From: Acidihalobacter yilgarnensis
GTDB lineage: Bacteria; Pseudomonadota; Gammaproteobacteria; DSM-5130; Acidihalobacteraceae
Direction: 5' to 3'
Length of the DNA: 64,000 nucleotides
Assembly: GCF_001753245.1 (NCBI RefSeq)
Contig: NZ_CP017415.1
Location: 1,578,501 to 1,642,500, forward strand
Both the position numbers and the translations under genes were made by a program. The number at the start of each line of letters is the position of its first letter. The stretch's first letter is position 1. Of the stretch, positions 10,188 through 51,233 are shown piece by piece. The notes below the pieces were generated by a model. That model worked only from the letters and a program-made list of their open reading frames with translations, did not search any database and was not told where the DNA came from.

Positions 10188-10488
10188 CGCCGCTTGCGGG
10201 GTGTGGGCTAAACAGTGGCAGCTCGTGACGCCGTGCATTGGCGGCGAGAAAGGCGCCTCGCCCGGCGTGTGTCCGGTCGAGTTGTGCCCGGTATTCCGAG
10301 GGTTCACCGAGCAGGGTGGCGAAGTAGACTTCCAGCTCGCTGGGTGCCACGCGCGGATACCCATAGGGGGTATCCGGCGCGGCACGCCAGAAGAGCCGCG
10401 GGGCCCAATTATGCGCCATGATTTCGGGGCGTGTTGACCAATCGCGCAGCTTGCGCGCGAGGGCAGAGTCGTCGATTTCCATGGGCAT
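10177..10488 (-). CDS. Hypothetical protein, 103 residues, coupled to the YheT-like hydrolase
   Basis: I do not recognise this family. The protein (start MPMEIDDSALARKLRDWS; a second ATG lies two codons later) is soluble, rich in Arg, Ala and Pro, and without signal peptide, membrane segment or cysteine motif. Its 3' end overlaps the start of the hydrolase by 11 bases in another frame, which supports a real translated gene in an operon. The frame has the same high-GC third-position bias as its neighbours. It may be an accessory to the hydrolase, but nothing in the sequence shows a function. Confidence 0.6.
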   Translation of the reverse strand: MPMEIDDSALARKLRDWSTRPEIMAHNWAPRLFWRAAPDTPYGYPRVAPSELEVYFATLLGEPSEYRAQLDRTHAGRGAFLAANARRHELPLFSPHPASGDAG

Positions 10489-10575
10489 GTTGTATGGGAT
10501 GGTCGTGATGTTTCAAGCCTGCGTCGGCGCTGCCATCATACCCCGCCACGCCGAGTGTCGCTAACCACCCTTGCG

Positions 10576-11157
10576 CTAACGCACCTCTATCTTGCCCCAC
10601 ATGCCGAAGGAAGCGTGCACGGGAAACAGGCAGATGTAATAGTATTGCCCCGTTTTTTGGGCTGACCAGTCGACCTTGGCGTAACTATAGCGACCTGGAT
10701 TTGGCAGGATGGGCAGATTGCCGGTGTCGACGAGGGGATGGGTGACGCGATTATCCGCGGGTACGACGGCATACGGCGGTCCGGCGGTGGTGATGGCAAA
10801 GCTGTGCGGCGCTACTTGGCTCGTGTTGATGACGTAAAAGGTGATATTGGCGCCGGCCGTAAAGACCAAGGTAGGGTTTTTGATATTGTCGACTTCAAAG
10901 GTCGGATAGGGAAAACCGGGCAGAACCTGTTCGACCACGACTATCGGATGGTTTCCAGAATATACGATGGTATCGCCGCTCTGTGTGCTGCCGGTATCCG
11001 TTTTCATCAGGCTCTGGATCTGCGGCCACGTGAGCGAGAGGGCGGTAGGCGCGGCCAGGGCGACACTGCTCGTCATCAAGGCGGCCAAAACTAAGGCGAG
11101 CGAGTAAAAGGGCATGATTGCAGCGCGGATGTGCGCTCGATAAGCACGAATCGACAT
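10576..11157 (-). CDS. Rusticyanin-like periplasmic blue copper protein
   Basis: Type 1 copper electron carrier, 193 residues. The hydrophobic N-terminal segment ending SSVALA (about 15-35) is a secretion signal, so the protein should be periplasmic. The mature part aligns by eye with Acidithiobacillus rusticyanin: TWPQIQSLMKTDTG, SGDTIVYSGN, VLPGFPYPTFEV, GPPYAVVP and the terminal GMWGKIEV. Copper ligands are in place: His118 (APHSFAI), Cys176, His181 and Met186, with the rusticyanin spacing C-x4-H-x4-M. The start at 11157 has AAGGTG five bases upstream. The gene stands alone, without the cytochromes and oxidase subunits of a rus operon. A role in iron or copper electron transfer is inferred. 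Confidence 0.9.
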   Translation of the reverse strand: MSIRAYRAHIRAAIMPFYSLALVLAALMTSSVALAAPTALSLTWPQIQSLMKTDTGSTQSGDTIVYSGNHPIVVVEQVLPGFPYPTFEVDNIKNPTLVFTAGANITFYVINTSQVAPHSFAITTAGPPYAVVPADNRVTHPLVDTGNLPILPNPGRYSYAKVDWSAQKTGQYYYICLFPVHASFGMWGKIEVR

Positions 11158-11310
11158 GTGTCACCTTGTTTTTGAGTTGTCTTAATAGGGTGAATGCACT
11201 TCGTTGGTGCGAGTGCAGGGCAACTCTAGCCGATCATAAAAAATATTTCATGGATTAATTGAAGTGATCAGCTAGTTGTGCGGGCAGGGGCCGAGTGACG
11301 GTGGTGGCCA

Positions 11311-12159
11311 TTACGCCACGCTGGCGTAGAGCCTGATCTGGGCTTCTGCCAGTACCCGCCAGCGCGTATGCGTGGATTGCAGCACACCTAGATAGTCGTT
11401 GTGCTTAACACCTGCCTGGGCGCGAACCTCGTCCATTCCGGTCTGCAGCAGACCGGAGAAGAAATTGATTTTACGGATACCGCGGCGAACCGATTCGCGG
11501 ATCGCGTCGTCGCCGACTCCGGTGGCGCCATGCATGACCAGTGGCACATTAACCCCAGCGGCAACGGCCTCGATGGTGTTCAGGCTGATATGCGGTGCTT
11601 CGCGGTAAAGGCCGTGCGCAGTACCCACGGCAATGGCCAGTGCGTCGACCCCGGTTTGTTCGACGAAGCGTCGCGCTTCGGCGGCATCGGTATAGGGCAG
11701 TGCGGCCGGCGCGTCATGGCCGGTATCCGCCACGCCCTCTTCACCGGCCACCGCGCCAAGCTCGCCCTCGACGCCCGCGCCGTAGCGCTTCGCCAGTTCG
11801 ACGACAGTTGCGGTCAGGTCGACGTTTTCGCTGAAGGGCAGATGTGATCCATCGATCATGATGCTGGTGAAGCCCAGATCGAGTGCTTCCCGGATCATGT
11901 CGACCTGTTCGGGGGCGGCATGATCGAGGTGCAGGGTGGCAGGTATGCCGGCCGATTCAATGGCCTTAAGGTAGGCCGGTGCGCGTAATGCGGTACGCAT
12001 GCCTTCGAAGTGACGGCTGGCAATGCCCACGATGACCGGCTTGCCGAGATTTTCCGCAGCTTCAAGTACCGCCAGCGCCATGTCGAGATTGAGGGTGTTG
12101 AAGCAACCCGCGGCGCCAGGCGCGGCTTCGTGCAATAGCTCGGCGAGGTTGCGCTTCAT
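11311..12159 (-). CDS. Class II (zinc) ketose-bisphosphate aldolase family protein
   Basis: Zinc-dependent aldolase of the fructose/tagatose-bisphosphate family, 282 residues, cytoplasmic. Zinc and substrate motifs are visible: LHLDHAAPEQ (metal-binding His and catalytic-region Asp), IMIDGSHLPF, VEGELGAVAGEE, AVGTAHGLY and VMHGATGVGDD, the last two carrying the other zinc histidines; then INFFSGL near the C-terminus. Most similar by eye to KbaY/GatY and unassigned relatives, so the true substrate may be a sugar phosphate other than fructose-1,6-bisphosphate. It overlaps the upstream kinase gene by four bases and probably cleaves the kinase product. Confidence 0.88.
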   Translation of the reverse strand: MKRNLAELLHEAAPGAAGCFNTLNLDMALAVLEAAENLGKPVIVGIASRHFEGMRTALRAPAYLKAIESAGIPATLHLDHAAPEQVDMIREALDLGFTSIMIDGSHLPFSENVDLTATVVELAKRYGAGVEGELGAVAGEEGVADTGHDAPAALPYTDAAEARRFVEQTGVDALAIAVGTAHGLYREAPHISLNTIEAVAAGVNVPLVMHGATGVGDDAIRESVRRGIRKINFFSGLLQTGMDEVRAQAGVKHNDYLGVLQSTHTRWRVLAEAQIRLYASVA

Positions 12160-13490
12160 CGCGAGATAGCTTGGGTTGTGGCAAGGCGGGTGTAGGCGGT
12201 GGCCAGAGCGTGCTCATCCCCGACGTTGCCCGGAAAAATCACCACCGGCAGCCCTGGGTAGCGGGGATGTTCGTCCGGACAGCGGACGACCGAACAGCCG
12301 GGCAGGATTTGGCCGAGTACGCGCGAGATGCGTAGCGCGAGGCCGGAACTGAGCACGTCGTTGGAGGTGATGCCGCCCTTGCTGATCAGAAAACCCAAGG
12401 TAACAGGCAACCCGCGCACGATGTCCATCAGGAAGGCAGACACCTGTTCGCCGAAGGCAAGGCGCGCGGCCTGGTCCGCAAACGCGCGTTCGACGCGGCT
12501 GGTGAATATCACCGGCGTCAGCCCGTCGGCGTGTGCCTGGTGACAGCGTTCCAGGATGTCGGTGAGCAGTGCGTCGCGTTCGCCGGCGATGCGGTCGACA
12601 TCGACTTCCATTTCGGCCACGCCGGGTATCCGCAGCAGTTGACCGAGTTGTTGTGTGGTTTTTTTGACGTGAGAGCCGACGATGACCGCGCCAGGTCGCC
12701 CGTTGCGTACGTAGGTCGCCATCTCCTCGGGGCGAACGGGTTGTGGCGGCAATGCGGCCAGTGCGGTCAGCAGGCTGGCGGCACTGCGGAAAAGAAAGCG
12801 TTTGCCCTCGGTGGCAGCTTGCAGCAGCTGGGCCGCGAAGTGATCGAGGTCGGTCTGGGCTTCAGCATCGACCACGCAGCACACGTTGTCGTGCAACCCC
12901 AGTAGACGCGCACTGACGTCGCCGCGCACGTCGGCCAGGGTGAAGCGCTCCACTTGATCTGCACGAATGCGGCCGGCGGTTTTTTCTTCGACGTAGTCGG
13001 GCAGATAGCTGTGTTGGTAACCGAAAATGGAATCACGCGCGAATTCGGTTTCGTGCACGGGAATGGGCTGCCCGTCCGTAATGAGATAGTGCACGCTGTC
13101 ACGGGTGAAACGCCCGCCTTCGAAGAATGCGGGCACCATGAAGTGCGCATCGAAAGGGCCGAGGGTTTCCGCGATGACGTCGGTTTCGACCGGGTAATGA
13201 CCGCGCAGAGTGGAATCTGAGCGGCTGACCAGTAGCGGATTGATGCGCTGCCCGTGCTGTTCGAGCGCGTCGAGCGCCTGCCGGATGTTTACGCAGACCT
13301 CGCGGGTGACGGCTTTGGCACGTTCCGCGCTCATGCCGCGGGTATTGGTCAGCACGAAGAATAGCGGTGAGGCGTCAAGCAAGGCTTCGCGCAGGGTATC
13401 GACGTCCCAGGAGGTCAGCAGCAGGCAGCCATGCACCGTTTGCGAGCCAGTGGGGTCGTCGTCCAGTACGATGATCTTGGTGGTACTCAT
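12156..13490 (-). CDS. Four-carbon acid sugar kinase family protein (DUF1537)
   Basis: ATP-dependent kinase of the DUF1537 family, 444 residues, members of which phosphorylate tetronates and related sugar acids. The N-terminal substrate domain starts IIVLDDDPTGSQTVHG, the signature DDxTG motif, with SRSDSTLRGHYP following. The C-terminal nucleotide-binding domain contains FLISKGGITSNDVL and PVVIFPGNVGDEHALA. I choose ATG 13490 because AGGAG lies six bases upstream; an ATG one codon earlier is too close. It lies 61 bases after the ThDP enzyme and overlaps the aldolase by four bases, so the three form one operon. The exact substrate is unknown. Confidence 0.9.
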   Translation of the reverse strand: MSTTKIIVLDDDPTGSQTVHGCLLLTSWDVDTLREALLDASPLFFVLTNTRGMSAERAKAVTREVCVNIRQALDALEQHGQRINPLLVSRSDSTLRGHYPVETDVIAETLGPFDAHFMVPAFFEGGRFTRDSVHYLITDGQPIPVHETEFARDSIFGYQHSYLPDYVEEKTAGRIRADQVERFTLADVRGDVSARLLGLHDNVCCVVDAEAQTDLDHFAAQLLQAATEGKRFLFRSAASLLTALAALPPQPVRPEEMATYVRNGRPGAVIVGSHVKKTTQQLGQLLRIPGVAEMEVDVDRIAGERDALLTDILERCHQAHADGLTPVIFTSRVERAFADQAARLAFGEQVSAFLMDIVRGLPVTLGFLISKGGITSNDVLSSGLALRISRVLGQILPGCSVVRCPDEHPRYPGLPVVIFPGNVGDEHALATAYTRLATTQAISR

Positions 13491-13551
13491 CATGGGCTCC
13501 TGAAGACGAGCCGCAGGCCGCCGATGGATTGGCGGTCTGCGGTTTGCCATG

Positions 13552-15771
13552 TCACGACAGTGCGCGTGCGCGCTCGATCATGCGGGCGGCGGTGATGCCG
13601 TTGAAATCCATGATCTCCGCAGGCGAGGCGGTGGTTTCGCCGCGCTTCCAGCAGAGCGTGTCGCGACGCGGGGCACGGCTGCGCAGCAGCACCGGTTCTA
13701 GCGGTGCGCTGGGCCCGCCGCTGACGGCCAGCAGCACGTCGCCGTCGAACAGTGCGTTGAACGACTCATCGGACATGAAACGGTCGTCCGCCTCGGAAAC
13801 CGTGTCCCAGGCCACATCGCTTGGGCGATATAGGCGGCGCGGGTTGAGTACGGCGACGATGCGCACACGGTAGCCTTCAGCCTCGAGCGCGTCCTTGGCT
13901 TCGAAGACTGGCAGGAAGACCATGTCGCCGGTAACCGCGAAGACCACAGTGCCCTTGCTGCCGCTAGTGGATTCATAAAGCACGGCGGCGCCTTCCTCGA
14001 TGGCGAGGCGGGCTTCGTCCAGGCTCAGATACACGGGCAGGGGGCTCTTGGAGGCGATGATCACCATGCCCTTGTTGAAGCTGCCGGTGGCGTAGGCGTA
14101 GGCGGCCTGGATCGCGTTGGCGTCGCAGGGGAACAGTGGGTAGACGTTGCCGTTGCGCATCATGGCCGCGAAGTAATTTTCGATCTCCGGGCGCTGATGG
14201 GTCCAGCCGTTACGGCCCTGCTCCAGTGCGCCTGCGGTGAACATGGTGACGATAGACGGCGTCTTGCGACGCAACTCGGCCATCGCCTGAGTCACGGTCT
14301 GTACGATCGGCCAGCCGTTGATCGCGAAGGATTCGTAGGAGAGCCACAGCGCGCGCGAACCGAATAGCGAGAGTCCCGCAGCAAGGCCGGCGCAGGCGTC
14401 CTCATTCAGTGGTTCGTAGACCTGCCCATTCGGCATCTGGTTGTAGAGAGGGTCCTGCGTGGGGTGGCGGATCTTGAGCGCGTCGTTGATGTTTTTCATC
14501 GCCGAGGCTTCGTTGCCGTCTGCATTGGTGACCACGAAGCGCGGGTCGGCCTTGCCGAGCTGTGCGACCAGTGCGCCCATGGTGGTCGAGGGCACGGCCT
14601 TTTCGCCCTTGGCGAAGTCCTGCATGGCGAATTCGGGCAGCGGTGCGAGCGCCAGCTCCGACTCGGTCACCGCCGTCTTGCCGGCAGGGCCACCGCCAGC
14701 GCGACTGAGGTTCTCGCGCACGAGCTGCCAGGCGTGTGGTGGCAGCGCGCGGCGCTTGAGGCCGTCGATGATGTGCTGTGCGTCGAGGGTGTCGGCAGGA
14801 TAAAGGTTATGCGATTTGGCGCCGGTGGTATGCACGCCGGTGCCCTTGAGCTGCTTGAGCACGAAGGCAGTGAGCTTGCCGCCCATCGCAGATTTCGCGG
14901 CGCGATCCATCTCACTGAGCACTCGGCCGGCGAAGGCCAAACGCGCGTCGTGGCCGAAGCGGCTGCTATCCACGAAGGTGCCGTCCTGGGCGCCGTCGTC
15001 GAAGTCCTTGGCGTCTACCAGGATTACCTCGTCGAAGCCGTGTCCCTTCCAGTAGGCAATCATGGCGTCATTGTCGAGCAGCGACACCATCGAATGATGT
15101 TCCTGCGAGTAACCGTTCCACACCAACACGGGTAGGAAGTTGGTCACTTCGGGGTAGGCCGTGTGGAAGTGCATCATGGCGTTGAGCACATAGGGCTCGC
15201 CCATGCCGCCGTCGCCGATGGTCACGGGGAACAGCTTGTCGCGGTGCAGCAGCGCGCCGGCCATGGCGAAGTGCTGGCCCTGGCCGAGCGGGCCGGCGGG
15301 GGCCAGAAGACCGGGGATGGCGCCGGAGAGATGGCCGAGAAGGCCATGCTTCTCACGGAAGCGCGCCATCATGTCGGTCAGCGTGTTGATGCCCATGGCC
15401 TCAAGCGAGCTGTCGAGGAACATCGAGGCGTAGAAGCCAGGGGCGTGGTGTCCGACCTCAGTGACAATATTGGTGTGCCCCAGCATCATCAGTGAGGCAT
15501 GCGCCTCTGCGCTGGAGGCGAAGCCACCGGGGTGGCCTGAGCCCTTTGAGCCGCAAACCTGCAAGGTGACGTAGCGCAAGGCATCGGCGGCGAGCAGGGT
15601 TTGGTACACGGCGCGGGTGTCGCTTGGATCGGCGATGGCCGACTGGCCCTCGGCGATGACCGCTTTGTCCGCATAGCGCTCGAAATCCTGCCAAGGCTTG
15701 CCGAGGTGACGAATGCCCTCGCAATAGGCGGGCAGATCGGTGTTGTTGATCTCGACTGGATTGCTGCTCAT
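13552..15771 (-). CDS. Thiamine-diphosphate enzyme, phosphoketolase/transketolase-like
   Basis: A 739-residue ThDP-dependent enzyme. The N-terminal part holds GSKGSGHPGGFASSAEAHAS, recalling transketolase GHPG, and the ThDP/magnesium motif GDGGMGEPYVLNAMMHF. The central part resembles phosphoketolases, for example LSYESFAINGWPIVQTVTQ and ESTSGSKGTVVFAVTGD near the C-terminal domain. I recall such proteins being annotated as phosphoketolase family or xylulose 5-phosphate 3-epimerase. Which reaction it performs cannot be told from sequence. Start ATG 15771 has GGGAGAG just upstream; the frame is open for a further 55 codons but that stretch covers the promoter region. First gene of the operon with the sugar-acid kinase and aldolase. 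Confidence 0.85.
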   Translation of the reverse strand: MSSNPVEINNTDLPAYCEGIRHLGKPWQDFERYADKAVIAEGQSAIADPSDTRAVYQTLLAADALRYVTLQVCGSKGSGHPGGFASSAEAHASLMMLGHTNIVTEVGHHAPGFYASMFLDSSLEAMGINTLTDMMARFREKHGLLGHLSGAIPGLLAPAGPLGQGQHFAMAGALLHRDKLFPVTIGDGGMGEPYVLNAMMHFHTAYPEVTNFLPVLVWNGYSQEHHSMVSLLDNDAMIAYWKGHGFDEVILVDAKDFDDGAQDGTFVDSSRFGHDARLAFAGRVLSEMDRAAKSAMGGKLTAFVLKQLKGTGVHTTGAKSHNLYPADTLDAQHIIDGLKRRALPPHAWQLVRENLSRAGGGPAGKTAVTESELALAPLPEFAMQDFAKGEKAVPSTTMGALVAQLGKADPRFVVTNADGNEASAMKNINDALKIRHPTQDPLYNQMPNGQVYEPLNEDACAGLAAGLSLFGSRALWLSYESFAINGWPIVQTVTQAMAELRRKTPSIVTMFTAGALEQGRNGWTHQRPEIENYFAAMMRNGNVYPLFPCDANAIQAAYAYATGSFNKGMVIIASKSPLPVYLSLDEARLAIEEGAAVLYESTSGSKGTVVFAVTGDMVFLPVFEAKDALEAEGYRVRIVAVLNPRRLYRPSDVAWDTVSEADDRFMSDESFNALFDGDVLLAVSGGPSAPLEPVLLRSRAPRRDTLCWKRGETTASPAEIMDFNGITAARMIERARALS

Positions 15772-15813
15772 GGTCTCTCCCGTACCGCCGCTCTTTTCAT
15801 AAGGCGGGAATAA

Positions 15814-15828
15814 TTTCATAATGCGAAA
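15814..15828. promoter_or_regulatory. Candidate IclR operator, proximal to the ThDP enzyme gene
   Basis: TTTCATAATGCGAAA, a near-palindrome, lies 43 bases upstream of the ThDP enzyme start. It differs by one base from a site at the other end of the divergent region, which suggests that both bind the IclR-type regulator encoded next door. A degenerate third copy (TTTTCATAAGGCGGGAA) overlaps 15794-15810. Confidence 0.55.
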
Positions 15829-15930
15829 AATCGCGCCAGGCAAACAAACGCGCTCAAACTGCTGCGGACGCACTGTTCGCCGATGTGGGAACCATAGGAC
15901 GCTGCCTGGTATTTCGCAATACACAATCGT

Positions 15931-15945
15931 TTTCATAATGTGAAA
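15931..15945. promoter_or_regulatory. Candidate IclR operator overlapping the iclR-like start codon
   Basis: TTTCATAATGTGAAA is a 15-bp inverted repeat (TTTCA-N5-TGAAA) whose last base is the first base of the regulator's ATG. Its twin lies 117 bases away, next to the operon. A bound regulator here would block its own expression, the common autoregulatory arrangement for IclR proteins. A related half site, ATTTCGCAAT, is at 15911-15920. Confidence 0.55.
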
Positions 15946-45464: not shown

Positions 45465-46049
45465 CTATTCCACGACAATCCGTCCCTTCATGCCGGCCTC
45501 GCGATGGCCGGGCAGCAGGCAGGCGTATTCGAACGAGCCGGGTTTGTCGAAGCGCCAGACCAGGCCGCCGCGCTGGCCGGCGTTCAGGCGGATCATGTTC
45601 GGCGCGGCATGCGACATCTCGGGCATTTTACGCATCATTTCGGCGTGTTGCGCCAATCGGTCTGCGGTGCCGATCACCATTTCGTGCACCATGCGGCCTT
45701 CGTTGCGAGCGAAGAAACGAATCGTCTCGCCCGCCTTGACGCGCAGGTCGGCGGGGGCAAAGCGCATGTCGTCGCTCATGTGGATGTCGATGGTGCGGTC
45801 GACCTTGGCTGGATCGCCCGGCTGCCCAGCCATGCCGCCGTGCATCGCCTGCCCGTCGCCGGTCATACCTTCGTGCATGCTCATGTCTCCGTGCATGTTG
45901 TTCATGTGATCCATGCCGGGCATGCTGTGTCCCGGCATCTGTGCGTCGCCGGACATGGTGCCGGGCATCATCGGCGTCTGCTGCTCGCCGCTCGCCATCG
46001 CGAGGGCCGGCAGTAGGCTGATGAGCGCGATCAGTATGGATTTTTTCAT
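45465..46049 (-). CDS. Periplasmic Met-rich cupredoxin (copper-resistance protein, CopI-like)
   Basis: A 194-residue exported copper protein. The signal peptide is KSILIALISLLPALAMA. A linker rich in Met, His and Gly (about 25-75, for example GHSMPGMDHMNNMHGDMSMH) is a likely copper buffer. The C-terminal cupredoxin domain has ligands His in GRMVHEMVIG, Cys in FEYACLLPGH with the following His, and Met in EAGMKGRIVVE. It is the third gene of the copper cluster, after copA and copB, 48 bases from copB. Its role is probably copper binding or oxidation in the periplasm. Confidence 0.88.
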   Translation of the reverse strand: MKKSILIALISLLPALAMASGEQQTPMMPGTMSGDAQMPGHSMPGMDHMNNMHGDMSMHEGMTGDGQAMHGGMAGQPGDPAKVDRTIDIHMSDDMRFAPADLRVKAGETIRFFARNEGRMVHEMVIGTADRLAQHAEMMRKMPEMSHAAPNMIRLNAGQRGGLVWRFDKPGSFEYACLLPGHREAGMKGRIVVE

Positions 46050-46097
46050 CTCGTGTCTCCTTGACCGGGTTTCGGGGCGAAATCTTTGGTGGACGGT

Positions 46098-47144
46098 TCA
46101 GAACCAAAAATGGAGGCCGGCAACCCAGCGCGTCGTGCGCGCAGGTTCTCCGGCGGCTCGGGCGAGGTCGGCTGTTTCGCCGAATTTTCCGGCCCACTCG
46201 ACGCCGACGTAGGGCGCGAACTGGCGGCCGAACTCATGCCGCAGGCGCAGGCCGGCACTGACATCTGACAGACCGCTGCCGATGTTTCTGGCCGCGTCGC
46301 GCTTGCCGTACAGATTGGCTTCGATACGTGGTTGCAGGATCAGCCGTTGGGTGATCCGCAGGTCGTATTCGGTCGCGGCGTGCAGCGCGGTGCGACTCTG
46401 GCTGCCGACGTAGGCGGTGACATCGGTCTCGAACCAGTAGGGCGCGAGCCCCTCGAAGCCGAAGGCCAGCCAGGTGCGCGAGGGATCGACGCCGTTGTCA
46501 TGGCGCACACCAAGCTGACCGTTCCAGAAAGTGGATAGCGCGTGGCTCCAGAAGGCCTGGGTGGTGGCCTCCTGCAGCTTGCCCTGCGCGACATGGCCCT
46601 CGGCCTTGATCACCAGGCGGTCGAAGTCGCGGCCGATCCAGGCCTGGGCATCGTAGGCGGTGGCGTTGCCGTGAGACGTAAAGACGCGTTCCAGCCGGTC
46701 GACGCGTACGGCGTGAAACAGCTTTTCGTCCGCAAGGTGCAGGCGCTGGCCGTCGGGCAGTGAGTAGGCACCGGAGGTGAGGGTGTAGCCATCGGCGTAG
46801 GCGTGTGGGTCGCGCGCGTCGGCTGGGGCGCTGCCGCCCTGCATGGACATGCCCTCGTGGTTCATCGCACCACTGCCCTGGGCCGCACCGACCGGGGTTC
46901 CGTGATTCATGTTCGCGTGATTCATGGTCGAAGGGTCTATGCTCGCAGAGCCCATATTTCCGTGATGCGGAGCGTCGCCGCTTCCCGTGTCCGGAACGGA
47001 CGTTGCGCTGCCGTGCATCATGGCGTCGTGCTGCATCGGCGGTGCGGCGATGTTTGCTGCAGGCGAGGTATCGGCTTGCGCCGTGGCGCTGGCGAGCAGC
47101 GCGGTGATCGCGAGTCTCAGGATCGGCGTGCGGGGCAATTTCAT
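46098..47144 (-). CDS. copB: Copper resistance protein B, outer membrane
   Basis: Outer-membrane copper-binding protein of 348 residues. After a signal peptide (LRLAITALLASATAQA) comes a Met/His-rich segment (about 35-110, with repeats such as NHANMNHG) and then the CopB beta-barrel domain from LADEKLFHAVRVDRLERVF to the terminal aromatic WVAGLHFWF, typical of outer-membrane insertion. I choose ATG 47144 because GAGAGGAG sits at the proper distance; an ATG two codons earlier abuts it. It is 29 bases after copA. Confidence 0.9.
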   Translation of the reverse strand: MKLPRTPILRLAITALLASATAQADTSPAANIAAPPMQHDAMMHGSATSVPDTGSGDAPHHGNMGSASIDPSTMNHANMNHGTPVGAAQGSGAMNHEGMSMQGGSAPADARDPHAYADGYTLTSGAYSLPDGQRLHLADEKLFHAVRVDRLERVFTSHGNATAYDAQAWIGRDFDRLVIKAEGHVAQGKLQEATTQAFWSHALSTFWNGQLGVRHDNGVDPSRTWLAFGFEGLAPYWFETDVTAYVGSQSRTALHAATEYDLRITQRLILQPRIEANLYGKRDAARNIGSGLSDVSAGLRLRHEFGRQFAPYVGVEWAGKFGETADLARAAGEPARTTRWVAGLHFWF

Positions 47145-47173
47145 CGTCATTCTCCTCTCGGCGGCGCCCGCGT

Positions 47174-48958
47174 TCAGGCGACCACGACCTCGCGGAACAT
47201 GCCCGCATCCATGTGGAACATCAGGTGGCAATGCCAGGCCCAGCGGCCGCGGGCGTCGGCGGTGATCAGGAAACTGACGCGCTGCGCGGGCTGCACCGCG
47301 ATGGTGTGCAGGCGCGCCTGGAATTCACCCGTGGGCGATTCGAGCTCGCTCCACATGCCGTGCAGATGCATGGGGTGCGTCATCATGGTGTCGTTGTGCA
47401 GGATCACGCGCAGGCGTTCGCCGTAGCGGAAATGCACCGGCGTGGAGTCGCCGAAGGGCAGGCCGTCGAAGGCCCAGGTATAGCGCTCCATGTTGCCGGT
47501 CAGGTGCAACTCGATTTCGCGTTCGGGGCCGCGCGGATCGATTGGCCCGCCGAGGGTGTGTAGGTCGGCGAGGGTCAGGCTGCGGCGACCGTTGCCGCGT
47601 AAGCCGACGCCGGGGTCGTCGAGATTGGTGCGTGGCATGTCGACGCGCATATCGGTGCTGGGGCCGTATTCGGTCCGAGCGTGGCGCACGGGGCGTGCGC
47701 CCTGGGCAGCGGTCGGCATGGCCATGCCGTGGGCGCCATGGTCCATCCCTTGGCTGGCCTGATTCATGTCCGCTTGCCTCATTGAGCCGTGGGCCATGCC
47801 GCCCATTGCGCCCATCATGTCCGCCATGGTGAGTTGTTCGATTTTGTCGAGCGCGGGCACCGGCGCGGTCAAACCGCCGCGCACGGCGAGTGTGCCGCGT
47901 GCGTAACCGCTGCGATCCATGGGCTGCGCGAAGATCGTGTAGGCATCGTCACGCGGGGTCACGATCACGTCGTAGGTTTCGCCGGGGCCGAAGCGGAACT
48001 CATCCACTGTGACCGGCTCGACGTTGACTCCGTCGGCCTGCACCACGGTGAGCTTGAGCCCGGGGATACGCACGTCGTAGAAGCTGTTGGCGGCACCGTT
48101 GACGAAGCGTAGGCGCACACGCTCGCCGGGACGGAACAGGCCAGTCCAGTTGCCGGCCGGCGTGGTGCCGTTCATCAGGTAGGTGAGCGTGGCGCCTGAT
48201 ACGTCTGCGAGATCGGTCGGACTCATGCGCATCTGGTTCCACATGCGACGCTGGTCGATCGCGGCGGTCACGCCCTCGTGCGCGGCGTCGCGGAAGAAAT
48301 CCACCGCCGTGGGCTGATGGTAGTTGTAATAGGCGCTCTGTGACTTGAGCTTGGCGTAGACCCGCATGGGATCCTCGTCTGTCCAGTCGGACAGTGCGAT
48401 CACGTGCTCGCGGTCGGCGCGGATGGTCTCGCCGCCGGCCGGCTCGACGACGATGGCACCGTACATCCCGGTCTGCTCCTGCATGCCGCTGTGCGAGTGA
48501 TACCAATAGGTGCCGCTCTGGCCGACCTTGAAGCGGTAGGTGAAGGTCTCGCCGGGCGGGATGCCAGGGAAGCTGATGCCGGGCACACCGTCCATCTGGT
48601 AGGGCAGAATGATGCCGTGCCAGTGGATCGAGGTGGTTTCGCGCAGACGATTGGTCACGCGCAAGGTCACGGTATCGCCCTCGCGCCAACGCAGGGTCGG
48701 CGCCGGGATCGAGCCGTTGATGGTGGTGGCAATGCGCGGGCTGCCGGTGAAATTGACCGGCGATTCGGCGATCACGAGATCGAATTCGGTCCCTCTGAGC
48801 ACTGATTTGCCGGTCGAAGGCGCGCGTCCGGCGCCGGTTGCGGCGGCCGCAATCGCGGGTGCAAGGCTGAGCATGACACCGCCAGCCGCGAGGCCTTGGA
48901 CGAAGCGCCGGCGGCGAAGATTGGGGGTGGCGTCAGGGCTGGTGGGGTGACGGGACAT
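47174..48958 (-). CDS. copA: Copper resistance protein A, multicopper oxidase
   Basis: Periplasmic multicopper oxidase of 594 residues that oxidises or sequesters copper. The N-terminus carries a twin-arginine signal (NLRRRRFVQGLAAGGVM). All copper motifs are present: TSIHWHGIILP, YWYHSHSGMQEQTGMYG, MTHPMHLHGMWSE and WHCHLMFHMDAGMF. A Met/His-rich insert (MMGAMGGMAHGSMRQADMN) is typical of CopA/PcoA. Start ATG 48958 has GGGAGGAG seven bases upstream. It is the first gene of copA-copB-cupredoxin, divergent from the sensor system. Confidence 0.95.
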   Translation of the reverse strand: MSRHPTSPDATPNLRRRRFVQGLAAGGVMLSLAPAIAAAATGAGRAPSTGKSVLRGTEFDLVIAESPVNFTGSPRIATTINGSIPAPTLRWREGDTVTLRVTNRLRETTSIHWHGIILPYQMDGVPGISFPGIPPGETFTYRFKVGQSGTYWYHSHSGMQEQTGMYGAIVVEPAGGETIRADREHVIALSDWTDEDPMRVYAKLKSQSAYYNYHQPTAVDFFRDAAHEGVTAAIDQRRMWNQMRMSPTDLADVSGATLTYLMNGTTPAGNWTGLFRPGERVRLRFVNGAANSFYDVRIPGLKLTVVQADGVNVEPVTVDEFRFGPGETYDVIVTPRDDAYTIFAQPMDRSGYARGTLAVRGGLTAPVPALDKIEQLTMADMMGAMGGMAHGSMRQADMNQASQGMDHGAHGMAMPTAAQGARPVRHARTEYGPSTDMRVDMPRTNLDDPGVGLRGNGRRSLTLADLHTLGGPIDPRGPEREIELHLTGNMERYTWAFDGLPFGDSTPVHFRYGERLRVILHNDTMMTHPMHLHGMWSELESPTGEFQARLHTIAVQPAQRVSFLITADARGRWAWHCHLMFHMDAGMFREVVVA

Positions 48959-49066
48959 TCGGCTACTCCTCCCTGCGGATGTCTGTTGGTTGCGCCCCAA
49001 GCGGCGACAGCCGGGGACTTGTCAGTCAGCCTATGGCGTACGCGCTGTCCACCGCATGACCGCTTC

Positions 49067-49082
49067 ATTACATTGATGTCAT
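49067..49082. promoter_or_regulatory. CusR/CopR-like copper box
   Basis: ATTACATTGATGTCAT matches the ATGACA-N4-TGTCAT operator of CusR/CopR/PcoR at all but one arm position. It lies in the divergent gap, 109 bases from the copA start and 71 bases before the response-regulator start, and could serve both. Confidence 0.65.
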
Positions 49083-49152
49083 GCTGGGCACTCCGGCGAC
49101 GCGCGGTTAAGCTCAGGGCGTACGGCACATGCAGGTGGATAACGGAGGGGGT

Positions 49153-49836
49153 ATGAAGTTGCTGGTGGTCGAAGACGAGGAAAAGACGGGTGAATACCTA
49201 CGCCAGGGCCTTGCCGAAGCCGGGTTTCTCGTCGATCTGGCGCGCAACGGCCTTGATGGCCATCACCTCGCGATGACCGGCGACTACGACCTTGTGATGC
49301 TCGATGTAATGCTGCCCGATGTTGACGGTTGGCGCATCGTGCGTGCGCTGCGCGAGGCGGGCAAGCCGGTGCCGGTGTTGTTTCTCACCGCGCGCGACAG
49401 CGTCGAGGACCGGGTCAAGGGACTGGAGCTGGGGGCCGACGATTATCTGGTGAAGCCCTTCGCCTTTTCCGAGCTGCTGGCGCGGGTGCGCTCGCTGCTG
49501 CGTCGCGGCGCGGCGCCGGTGACGTCCGACCGCCTGACGGTGGCCGATCTTGTCCTCGACCTCCCGCGGCGGCGCGCCAGCCGTGGCAGCGCGCGCATTA
49601 ACCTGACCAACAAGGAATTTGCGCTGCTGGAGCTGCTGGTGCGAAGGCAGGGCGAGGTGCTGCCACGCTCGCTGATCGCTTCGCAGGTCTGGGACATGAA
49701 TTTCGATAGCGACACCAATGTGATTGACGTGGCGATACGCCGTCTACGCGCCAAGGTCGACGAGGGCTTCGAGCCGAAGCTGATCCACACCGTGCGCGGC
49801 ATGGGCTACGTACTCGACCTGCCGGACGCCGAATGA
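49153..49836 (+). CDS. Heavy-metal response regulator, CusR/CopR type
   Basis: A 227-residue OmpR/PhoB-family regulator. The receiver domain has [18 protein letters not shown], the phospho-acceptor Asp in [16 protein letters not shown], and the conserved Lys in [14 protein letters not shown]. The C-terminal winged helix includes [20 protein letters not shown] and [17 protein letters not shown]. Start ATG 49153 with GGAGGGGG just upstream. It overlaps the kinase gene by four bases and very probably activates copA through the box in the gap. Confidence 0.92.
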
Positions 49837-51233
49837 GTCGCCGTCCCATCTCTCTCGCACTGCGGGTGACGGCCCGCGTAGGGCTGGCCACCTGCCTGCT
49901 GTTTCTCGGTTTCGGCTGGGTCATCGAGCGTTCGATCGAACATCATTTCGCGGAGCAGGATGCCGGTGTACTCGCCGGCGTGGCGAAGGCGGTCGTGTCC
50001 GCACTGGACACCCGCGCCCCGCAGATTCCGTTGCACGAAGTGCTGGCCCGGGCGGTGTCCGCCGAGAAACGTGTGTACGTGGTGGTGACAGCTGCCGATG
50101 GCAGCCATCTGTACGCATCGCCGGGTCCGGGGTTCGCGCCCTTGCTCAGCTCGGCGCTGCCCGTCGAGCGGATCACGCCCGGCAGCTTGTACGTCTGGCG
50201 TGAGGACGGTAGCCGTTATCGGGGTGCGATGTTGCGCGCGGAGGCTGGACCGACCGGACACTCGATGCCCATCACCATCGCGGTGGCGATGCCAACGGAC
50301 TTCCACCAGCACTTCCTCGACTGGTTCCAGCGCACGCTGTGGATGACCACCGCCTTCGCCTGTCTCCTGGCCATTGCCGCCGCCTGGTTCGCGGTGCAGC
50401 GTGGGCATGCACCGCTGCGCGACATTAGCGCGCGCATCCGCGGCATCACCTCGGCGCGCCTGGACACGCGTCTATCGCCCGAGGCGGTGCCGGTCGAGCT
50501 GGCCGAACTCGCGACCTCGTTCAACGATATGCTCGAACGCATCGAAGACAGCTTTCGCCGTCTGTCGTCCGTGTCCGCCGACATCGCGCATGAGCTGCGC
50601 ACGCCGGTGACCAATCTCGCGACGCAGACCCAGGTGGCGCTTGGACGCGCACGCAATGCCGAGGCTTATCGCGAGATTCTGTATTCCAACCTTGAGGAAT
50701 ACGAGCGTATGGGCAAGATGATCGGCGACATGCTGTTCCTTGCCCAGGCCGACAACCGCCGTCTCCGGCTCGAACGCGACGCCGTCGATCTCGTGGACGA
50801 GGTGCGGGCGTTGTTCGACTTCTTTGAGGCCTGGGCGGAAGACCGCCACGTCTCGCTACGACTGGAGGGAGAAGCGCGAAAAGTGCCGGGAGATCGTCTG
50901 ATGCTGCGCCGTGCCGCGAGCAACCTGCTCGGTAACGCCATCCGCCACACGGCCGAGGGCGGCACGGTGACTGTGCGTCTAGCTGAGAGCGATGAGTCGG
51001 TGACACTCACCGTGGAGAACTCCGGGCCTGCGATAGAACGCGTGCATCTTGACCACCTGTTCGAGCGCTTTTACCGTGCCGATCCTTCGCGCCAGCGCAA
51101 AGGGGAGGGCGCCGGTCTCGGGCTCGCCATCGTCAAGTCCATCGCCGAGGCCCACGGTGGATCGGCGTCTGTCGATTCGGTCGAGGGGCAAACGCACTTC
51201 CATATCCGACTGCCGCGCCGTGTCGCTGGCTAG
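49833..51233 (+). CDS. Heavy-metal sensor histidine kinase, CusS/CopS type
   Basis: A 466-residue membrane kinase. Transmembrane segment 1 is near residues 15-30, a periplasmic sensor region follows, and transmembrane segment 2 is [22 protein letters not shown] domain comes next. The H-box is [20 protein letters not shown]1 and G2 boxes are [27 protein letters not shown] and [20 protein letters not shown]. This is a classical CusS architecture and should sense periplasmic copper or silver. Start overlaps the regulator stop (ATGA). Confidence 0.93.

Follow-up and report, generated by a model that had tools for sequence, protein, structure and literature searches.

Acidihalobacter prosperus possesses two forms of rusticyanin. 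Form I is encoded in a rus-like cluster, and Form II is a singleton with conserved copper ligands and loop length and a predicted signal peptide, whose function and partners are stated to be unknown in a 2017 paper (PMC5216662). In the salt response described there, Form II abundance was unchanged and Form I was increased 9.7-fold. In Acidithiobacillus, stand-alone rus genes are listed in a 2023 paper (PMC10654088), and a connection of RusA and RusB with copper was described in 2020 (PMC7463520); RusB and the stand-alone copies are second rusticyanin genes outside the rus operon, as is the gene analyzed here.

The present analysis concerns a window of 64,000 nucleotides (the whole stretch of DNA that was analyzed) from Acidihalobacter yilgarnensis, the genome of which consists of one contig of 3,566,941 bp. 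The window carries a rusticyanin gene that is most likely orthologous to Form II of A. prosperus, which has been described though not explained, and it is named accordingly in the following. It agrees with Form II of A. prosperus DSM 5130 (Thpro_020703), as portrayed in the 2017 paper, in genus, singleton state, ligands, loop length, and the lack of iron-oxidation genes nearby. Thpro_020703 stems from another species; genus, number of copies, and context were the grounds for equating it with the window gene. That description calls the redox partners unknown, and the residue changes reported below bear on the question of the partner.

The Form II gene and its family assignment

Table 1. Features of the Form II gene and of the adjoining upstream cluster (window positions).
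Feature	Position	Strand	Basis and remarks
Rusticyanin Form II gene, whole ORF including stop	10576..11157	-	193 aa, ATG start; ORF, profile, PDB, and genome matches
Probable Sec signal peptide, residues 1-35 (...SVALA|APTAL)	11053..11157	-	by-eye reading; assumed cut site
Mature cupredoxin domain, 158 aa, ~17.2 kDa, computed pI 6.45	10579..11052	-	from assumed cut site
Codon of copper ligand His118 (His85 of A. ferrooxidans Rus)	10804..10806	-	alignment
Codon of copper ligand Cys176 (Cys138 of A. ferrooxidans Rus)	10630..10632	-	alignment
Codon of copper ligand His181 (His143 of A. ferrooxidans Rus)	10615..10617	-	alignment
Codon of copper ligand Met186 (Met148 of A. ferrooxidans Rus)	10600..10602	-	alignment
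Probable ribosome-binding site AAGGTG, 4 nt before ATG	11162..11167	-	read from sequence; identical in G001
25-nt AT-rich upstream element	11238..11262	-	identical in G001; not conserved in G002
Class II aldolase	11311-12159	-	Pfam/NCBIfam; upstream co-oriented cluster 11311..15936
SBD_N/NBD_C sugar-acid kinase family	12156-13550	-	Pfam/NCBIfam; same cluster
Phosphoketolase-like protein	13552-15936	-	Pfam/NCBIfam; same cluster

The four ligands that an earlier note on this DNA had read from the sequence are present in rusticyanin spacing and align with His85, Cys138, His143, and Met148 (Table 1). The C-X4-H-X4-M ligand loop is kept (CLFPVHASFGM), and so is the serine beside the first histidine ligand (H118-S119, corresponding to Ser86 in A. 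ferrooxidans numbering). The AF2 model of the window protein (30 aligned sequences, mean pLDDT 79.3, pTM 0.72) shows a helix at residues 16–28 of the signal region, and pLDDT falls below 50 at residues 1–11 and 30–35. By eye, no membrane anchor beyond the signal peptide was seen in the window protein, and the protein contains no metal-rich extra segment. Form II would be a type-1 (blue) copper protein from the rusticyanin family, exported to the periplasm and soluble there, and would carry electrons one at a time as its copper alternates between Cu(I) and Cu(II).

The gene product is a rusticyanin by sequence, fold, and tree. Nine rusticyanin sequences headed the PDB sequence search (E 5e-36 for 1CUR to 9.4e-34), followed by designed 'Pizza' proteins as chance matches (E 0.0006); no further natural cupredoxin scored better than E 0.076. 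When the AF2 model was compared to PDB folds, ranks 1–9 were all occupied by rusticyanins (E 3.1e-19 to 8.7e-16), with a nitrite reductase in tenth place (E 2.5e-7). The NCBIfam rusticyanin model TIGR03095 gave 124.9 bits (E 2.9e-36), which is under the curated cut-off of 146.7; Form I from the rus operon of the same genome also stays under it with 142.4 bits, so that the cut-off does not divide the two proteins here, and two scanned Acidithiobacillus rusticyanins reached 224.4 and 226.8 bits. Sulfocyanin, AcoP, CopI, and auracyanin share the cupredoxin fold with rusticyanin. The sulfocyanin model TIGR03094 yielded 18.7 bits at a cut-off of 168.4, the AcoP and auracyanin structures ranked far under rusticyanin by fold, and an assignment to sulfocyanin, auracyanin, or AcoP is ruled out by sequence, fold, and tree. 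The CopI-like protein of the window is a separate gene (45465-46049) and itself scores under the CopI cut-offs; together with the adjoining multicopper oxidase, it belongs to the weaker matches of the window protein in the genome. Rusticyanin being by far the nearest family among PDB chains in both sequence and fold, the grouping with unrelated cupredoxins that the earlier note had named as contrary evidence did not emerge.

The Pfam and NCBIfam scans of the window protein detected a cupredoxin domain only. The earlier note had left the choice between a second copy with a different partner and a sensor-like paralogue. The latter, i.e., a redox or metal sensor, has the lack of operon partners as its sole point, and we consider it highly improbable given that neither database revealed a signalling domain and that no regulator lies within 4 kb among the neighbours inspected; the nearest are an IclR gene 4.8 kb away and a MerR-like gene 4 kb away (the latter by eye). 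Of the two readings, that of an additional copy whose partner has changed explains the findings best.

Three rusticyanins in one genome

The absence of rus-operon partners from the neighbourhood, which the earlier note had pointed out, was borne out by tblastn with seven operon proteins (coxA, coxB, cyc2, acoP, ctaA, ctaB, and rus; E 1e-8), as only rus matched the window. Furthermore, no CXXCH haem motif occurs among the called window genes, and no c-type cytochrome gene was called near the Form II gene. A genome search, as suggested in that note, located the rus operon 1.57 Mb away (C1:3.155-3.164 Mb, locus L006), together with Form I and a second singleton rusticyanin. The extra rusticyanin is thus confirmed, with a count of three rather than two for the A. 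yilgarnensis genome, which fits the iron-oxidizing acidophile that the note had supposed.

The genes of the rus operon follow each other on one strand in the order Cyc2-like, AcoP-like, coxB, coxA, CoxC-like, ctaA, ctaB, and Form I (L006 9714-10295, 44% identical to the window protein), and a SCO1 gene is found further down past Form I, along with pet genes (by eye). The names Cyc2-, AcoP-, and CoxC-like are our presumption from position and from similarity to the correspondingly placed genes of Acidithiobacillus loci; the Cyc2-like and AcoP-like proteins matched nothing in Pfam or NCBIfam, and the CoxC-like protein nothing in Pfam. The Cyc2-like and AcoP-like genes are separated by a gap of only 92 bp, and no further CXXCH protein was called in this part (L006 16412-18429); for Acidihalobacter, the 2023 paper places cyc1 between the Cyc2 and AcoP genes (PMC10654088). 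The window gene lies outside any operon with cyc2, acoP, cox genes, or ctaA/B. Form I and A. ferrooxidans Rus (1RCY/1CUR) have fold, copper ligands, spacing, and Ser86 in common with the window protein, which is ~39–44% identical to them and, unlike both, is encoded outside a cyc2/cox operon.

The second singleton (L005 9450-10037) is 65% identical to the window protein and adjoins an ArsR-type regulator; an integrase gene lies at a distance of 7 kb. Some 5–8 kb from this singleton (L005 14651-17776) lie genes for a sigma-70 family factor, a DUF2282 protein, and an MbnB/TglH/ChrH-type enzyme, a set that we take to be reminiscent of a copper-binding peptide (bufferin-like) operon.

A maximum-likelihood tree of 49 rows unites the window protein with its orthologue in the related genome G001 and with the second singleton (100/99), and the sister group of this clade is Form I from three species (96/89). 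Both forms belong to a rusticyanin clade of 34 rows (100/100); the other 15 rows are more distant and served as an outgroup of our choice, on which the tree was rooted. For these trees, one sequence was taken per distinct last 120 residues (55), proteins of >300 aa were trimmed to the last 230 residues, short fragments were left out, and the N-terminal piece L015 was dropped throughout. Matches without a locus (1 from the 12-genome set and 7 from the search of the order of G210) were also left out, and the G002 C-terminal ORF (start partly insertion-derived), AcoP, L066, and L045 were kept out of the 49-row and constraint trees. Two rusticyanin-like proteins without copper ligands (described below) were omitted from the 49-row tree and included in the later constraint tree. 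With this pair added, the best tree no longer unites Form I with Form II, a grouping that is nevertheless not rejected (p-AU 0.423). In that tree, Form II is placed with the ligand-less proteins at unsupported values (52/18), and a clade of all three groups has 72/90.

The distinction of types A and B proposed in the earlier note did not carry over, as the window gene groups with neither Acidithiobacillus type and looks like a paralogue from within Acidihalobacter. Forcing Form II together with ten Acidithiobacillus-type rows, a constraint group named after inspection of the first tree, was disfavoured (p-AU 0.032, 22.8 lnL), and so is a place among RusA/RusB or a recent transfer from that genus. 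Form II likely originated by duplication of Form I, the iron-oxidation rusticyanin of the operon, within the Acidihalobacter lineage, as judged from the sequences; the operon-encoded gene would have given rise to a copy at a separate site with an upstream region of its own.

The window protein found matches in 5/56 relatives at E 1e-10, in all five genomes of the order at 1e-8, in 5 of 369 genomes of the class at E 1e-10, in 18/57 genomes of the order of G210 at E 1e-8, and in 12/12 genomes of a set picked for carrying one; TIGR03095 at 1e-12 met a single genome of 398 from the phylum, i.e., that of A. yilgarnensis itself. The class and phylum draws were sparse, and a scan of named genome contigs, which yielded 17 loci, used two peptide patterns and possibly left out records near this genome, so that Form II outside Acidihalobacter may have been missed. 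Among the 17 loci, coxA lies within the examined stretch in 11, two (L033 and L037) are too near a contig end to judge, and in four, all from Acidithiobacillus (L030, L034, L038, and L040), coxA is missing from an upstream stretch of 5.9 kb or more. These four copies group with their own genus and carry the residues I,G,T,F at the rim of the copper site, unlike Form II. The stand-alone state therefore arose more than once.

Neighbourhood and conservation of the locus

The cluster upstream of Form II (Table 1) does not consist of iron genes, and it is kept beside the Form II gene in G001. A phosphoketolase-like protein, a kinase-family protein, and a class II aldolase make up an odd sugar-acid route for a chemolithotroph genus; the phosphoketolase-like protein is over the Pfam cut-offs and far under every NCBIfam phosphoketolase cut-off matched (best score 114 bits against 777). 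Another group of genes in the window (45465-51233) encodes the CopI-like cupredoxin (under the CopI cut-offs), CopB, and a CopA-type multicopper oxidase, and continues with a likely response regulator and a kinase (both by eye). Genes were called by a simple codon scorer, which missed some (e.g., the aldolase of G001, recovered by tblastn) and may have made false calls.

G001 and G002 carry Form II in the same place; in G001 it is flanked by the phosphoketolase/kinase/aldolase cluster on one side and hydrolase/pnp on the other. The G002 orthologue is split by an IS21-type insert of ~2.6 kb (L017 8443-10870) that encodes an IstB protein and an integrase-core transposase, and tblastn found no aldolase in the 20 kb examined at this locus. 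The split implies that Form II is dispensable in G002. The mature window protein is 83.5% identical to that of G001 (87.7% for the Form I counterpart pair). The corresponding genes differ by a dN of 0.101 and a dS of 1.436 (ratio ~0.07), which indicates purifying selection on Form II and is close to the Form I comparison (dN 0.070, dS 0.947). All these figures were obtained by NG86 only, and dS was not computable between the window gene and either G002 or the second singleton.

In the ~150 bp upstream of the gene, a stretch of 25 nt is identical between the window and G001, and G002 is without it. From its sequence conservation, it is probably a promoter or regulatory site of Form II's own. 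The element occurs once in the genome, even with up to 3 mismatches allowed, and a regulatory element common to all three rusticyanin genes was rejected on this ground. A consensus promoter scan of 10380-11450 returned a single promoter-like site, against 0.6 expected, which lies downstream of the gene; none was detected at the 25-nt element, and a terminator scan of the same region was negative.

These data also bear on the notion that Form II is a redundant backup copy heading to loss and without a special role. The IS21-type split in G002, the singleton state, and the lower mature identity to G001 than that of Form I would fit, and we nevertheless hold it to be quite improbable: the dN/dS ratio is low, the ligands are kept, the ribosome-binding site and the upstream element are retained in G001, and a second member of the Form II clade is present in the same genome.

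Residues beside the copper ligands and the question of the partner

The four copper ligands are kept in 52 of 54 aligned rusticyanin-type rows, an alignment that takes in the ligand-less pair and the G002 C-terminal piece. What is new here is that Form II keeps these ligands while residues 82, 84, 140, 142, 146, and 149 beside them differ from those of both Form I and Acidithiobacillus. All four rows of the Form II clade read V, P, F, V or T, F, and W at these positions, compared to G, E, T, G, T, and F/Y/H in the three Form I rows and G, G, I, G, T, and F in 18 rows, which stem from Acidithiobacillus and the genus of G210 and take in stand-alone copies. Position 80 adds to the positions distinguishing the two forms (Ser in Form II, Asn in Form I). 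Outside the Form II clade, the rim residues 140/142/146/149 are I,G,T,F in 18/50 rows, and Gly142 is absent in only 2/50. Positions 84, 140, and partly 149 also vary between Form I and Acidithiobacillus; because Form I itself departs from the latter at 140 and partly at 149, the rim change is peculiar to Form II only in part. Relative to 1CUR, the window protein carries N80S, K81Q, G82V, G84P, K92A, Q139L, I140F, G142V, T146F, and F149W, where G82, G142, T146, and N80 are common to Form I and 1CUR. A literature search for a rusticyanin with Asn80 returned nothing. Going by rusticyanin structures, we take the changed positions to lie beside the copper ligands in sequence and in the loop of the solvent-exposed histidine.

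The changes, which probably took place within one genus after duplication, are now named residue by residue and make a clean test of cytochrome preference between Form I and Form II possible. The copper ligands were retained while residues round them, including those beside the exposed histidine as the presumed electron exit point, became larger and more hydrophobic. Side chains of this kind argue for a changed docking partner: the altered face most likely docks a periplasmic partner different from that of Form I. We therefore favour, with slightly better than even confidence, Form II as a periplasmic one-electron carrier whose partner differs from that of Form I and which would add an accessory branch to the iron/sulfur electron-transfer network of the periplasm.

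The main rival is a periplasmic copper buffer or tolerance protein that holds copper in a harmless state or passes it on, with electron transfer being secondary. In A. ferrivorans ACH at 400 mM copper, rusB increased ~22-fold and rusA ~7.6-fold, and the same source, citing another paper, attributes copper resistance of E. coli to A. ferrooxidans Rus (PMC7463520). Moreover, a ligand-bearing rusticyanin relative in the sister genus adjoins a heavy-metal P-type ATPase and a multicopper oxidase (L020 6025-12056, by position and similarity; L022 6019-13000, by Pfam). The window gene, however, is not beside copper genes, the copper cluster of the window being 34 kb off, Form II is devoid of a metal-rich extra segment, and a buffer would not predict changes beside the ligands. 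A copper-buffering Form II appears doubtful to us, if still a serious possibility.

A second, stand-alone Cyc2-like gene was found in three of the five genomes of the order (G000, L118 8644-10125; G001, L119 9123-10433; G002, L120 9016-10530). It occupies a conserved place, encodes one CXXCH motif in each case, and shares 42–43% identity with the Cyc2 from the G000 operon; among the proteins called in the surrounding 20 kb, it is the only one with CXXCH. Form II and this paralogue could constitute a second entry for iron oxidation, i.e., a chain parallel to the rus operon under other conditions, which would accord with the presence of the paralogue in all three genomes and with the lack of other CXXCH proteins near it. 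The authors of the 2017 paper had speculated that Form II also serves iron oxidation, perhaps under other conditions (PMC5216662). As the two genes are unlinked, and as G002 retains the second Cyc2-like gene yet has a split Form II, we regard such a chain as unlikely. Its more specific version, a dispersed second iron-oxidation chain in which an unlinked outer-membrane Cyc2 paralogue and Form II with a rebuilt docking face operate under other salt, potential, or mineral conditions, seems to us a shade less probable still. The accessory carrier with a partner of its own remains our preferred reading.

Regarding other noteworthy relatives, two genomes (G003 and G004) encode rusticyanin-like proteins that have lost all four copper ligands (L021 9517-10302 and L023 9317-10090; His to Gly, Cys to Ser, His to Asn, and Met to Glu or Gln). 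In both genomes, a search with the operon Cyc2 gave no match at E 1e-5. The two proteins have Ser80, Pro84, and Trp149 in common with Form II, their place in the tree being unsure, and they sit at the rus place of an acoP-coxBAC-ctaB-like cluster. A ligand-less operon 'rusticyanin' in two relatives without a Cyc2 match is more striking than the window gene itself.
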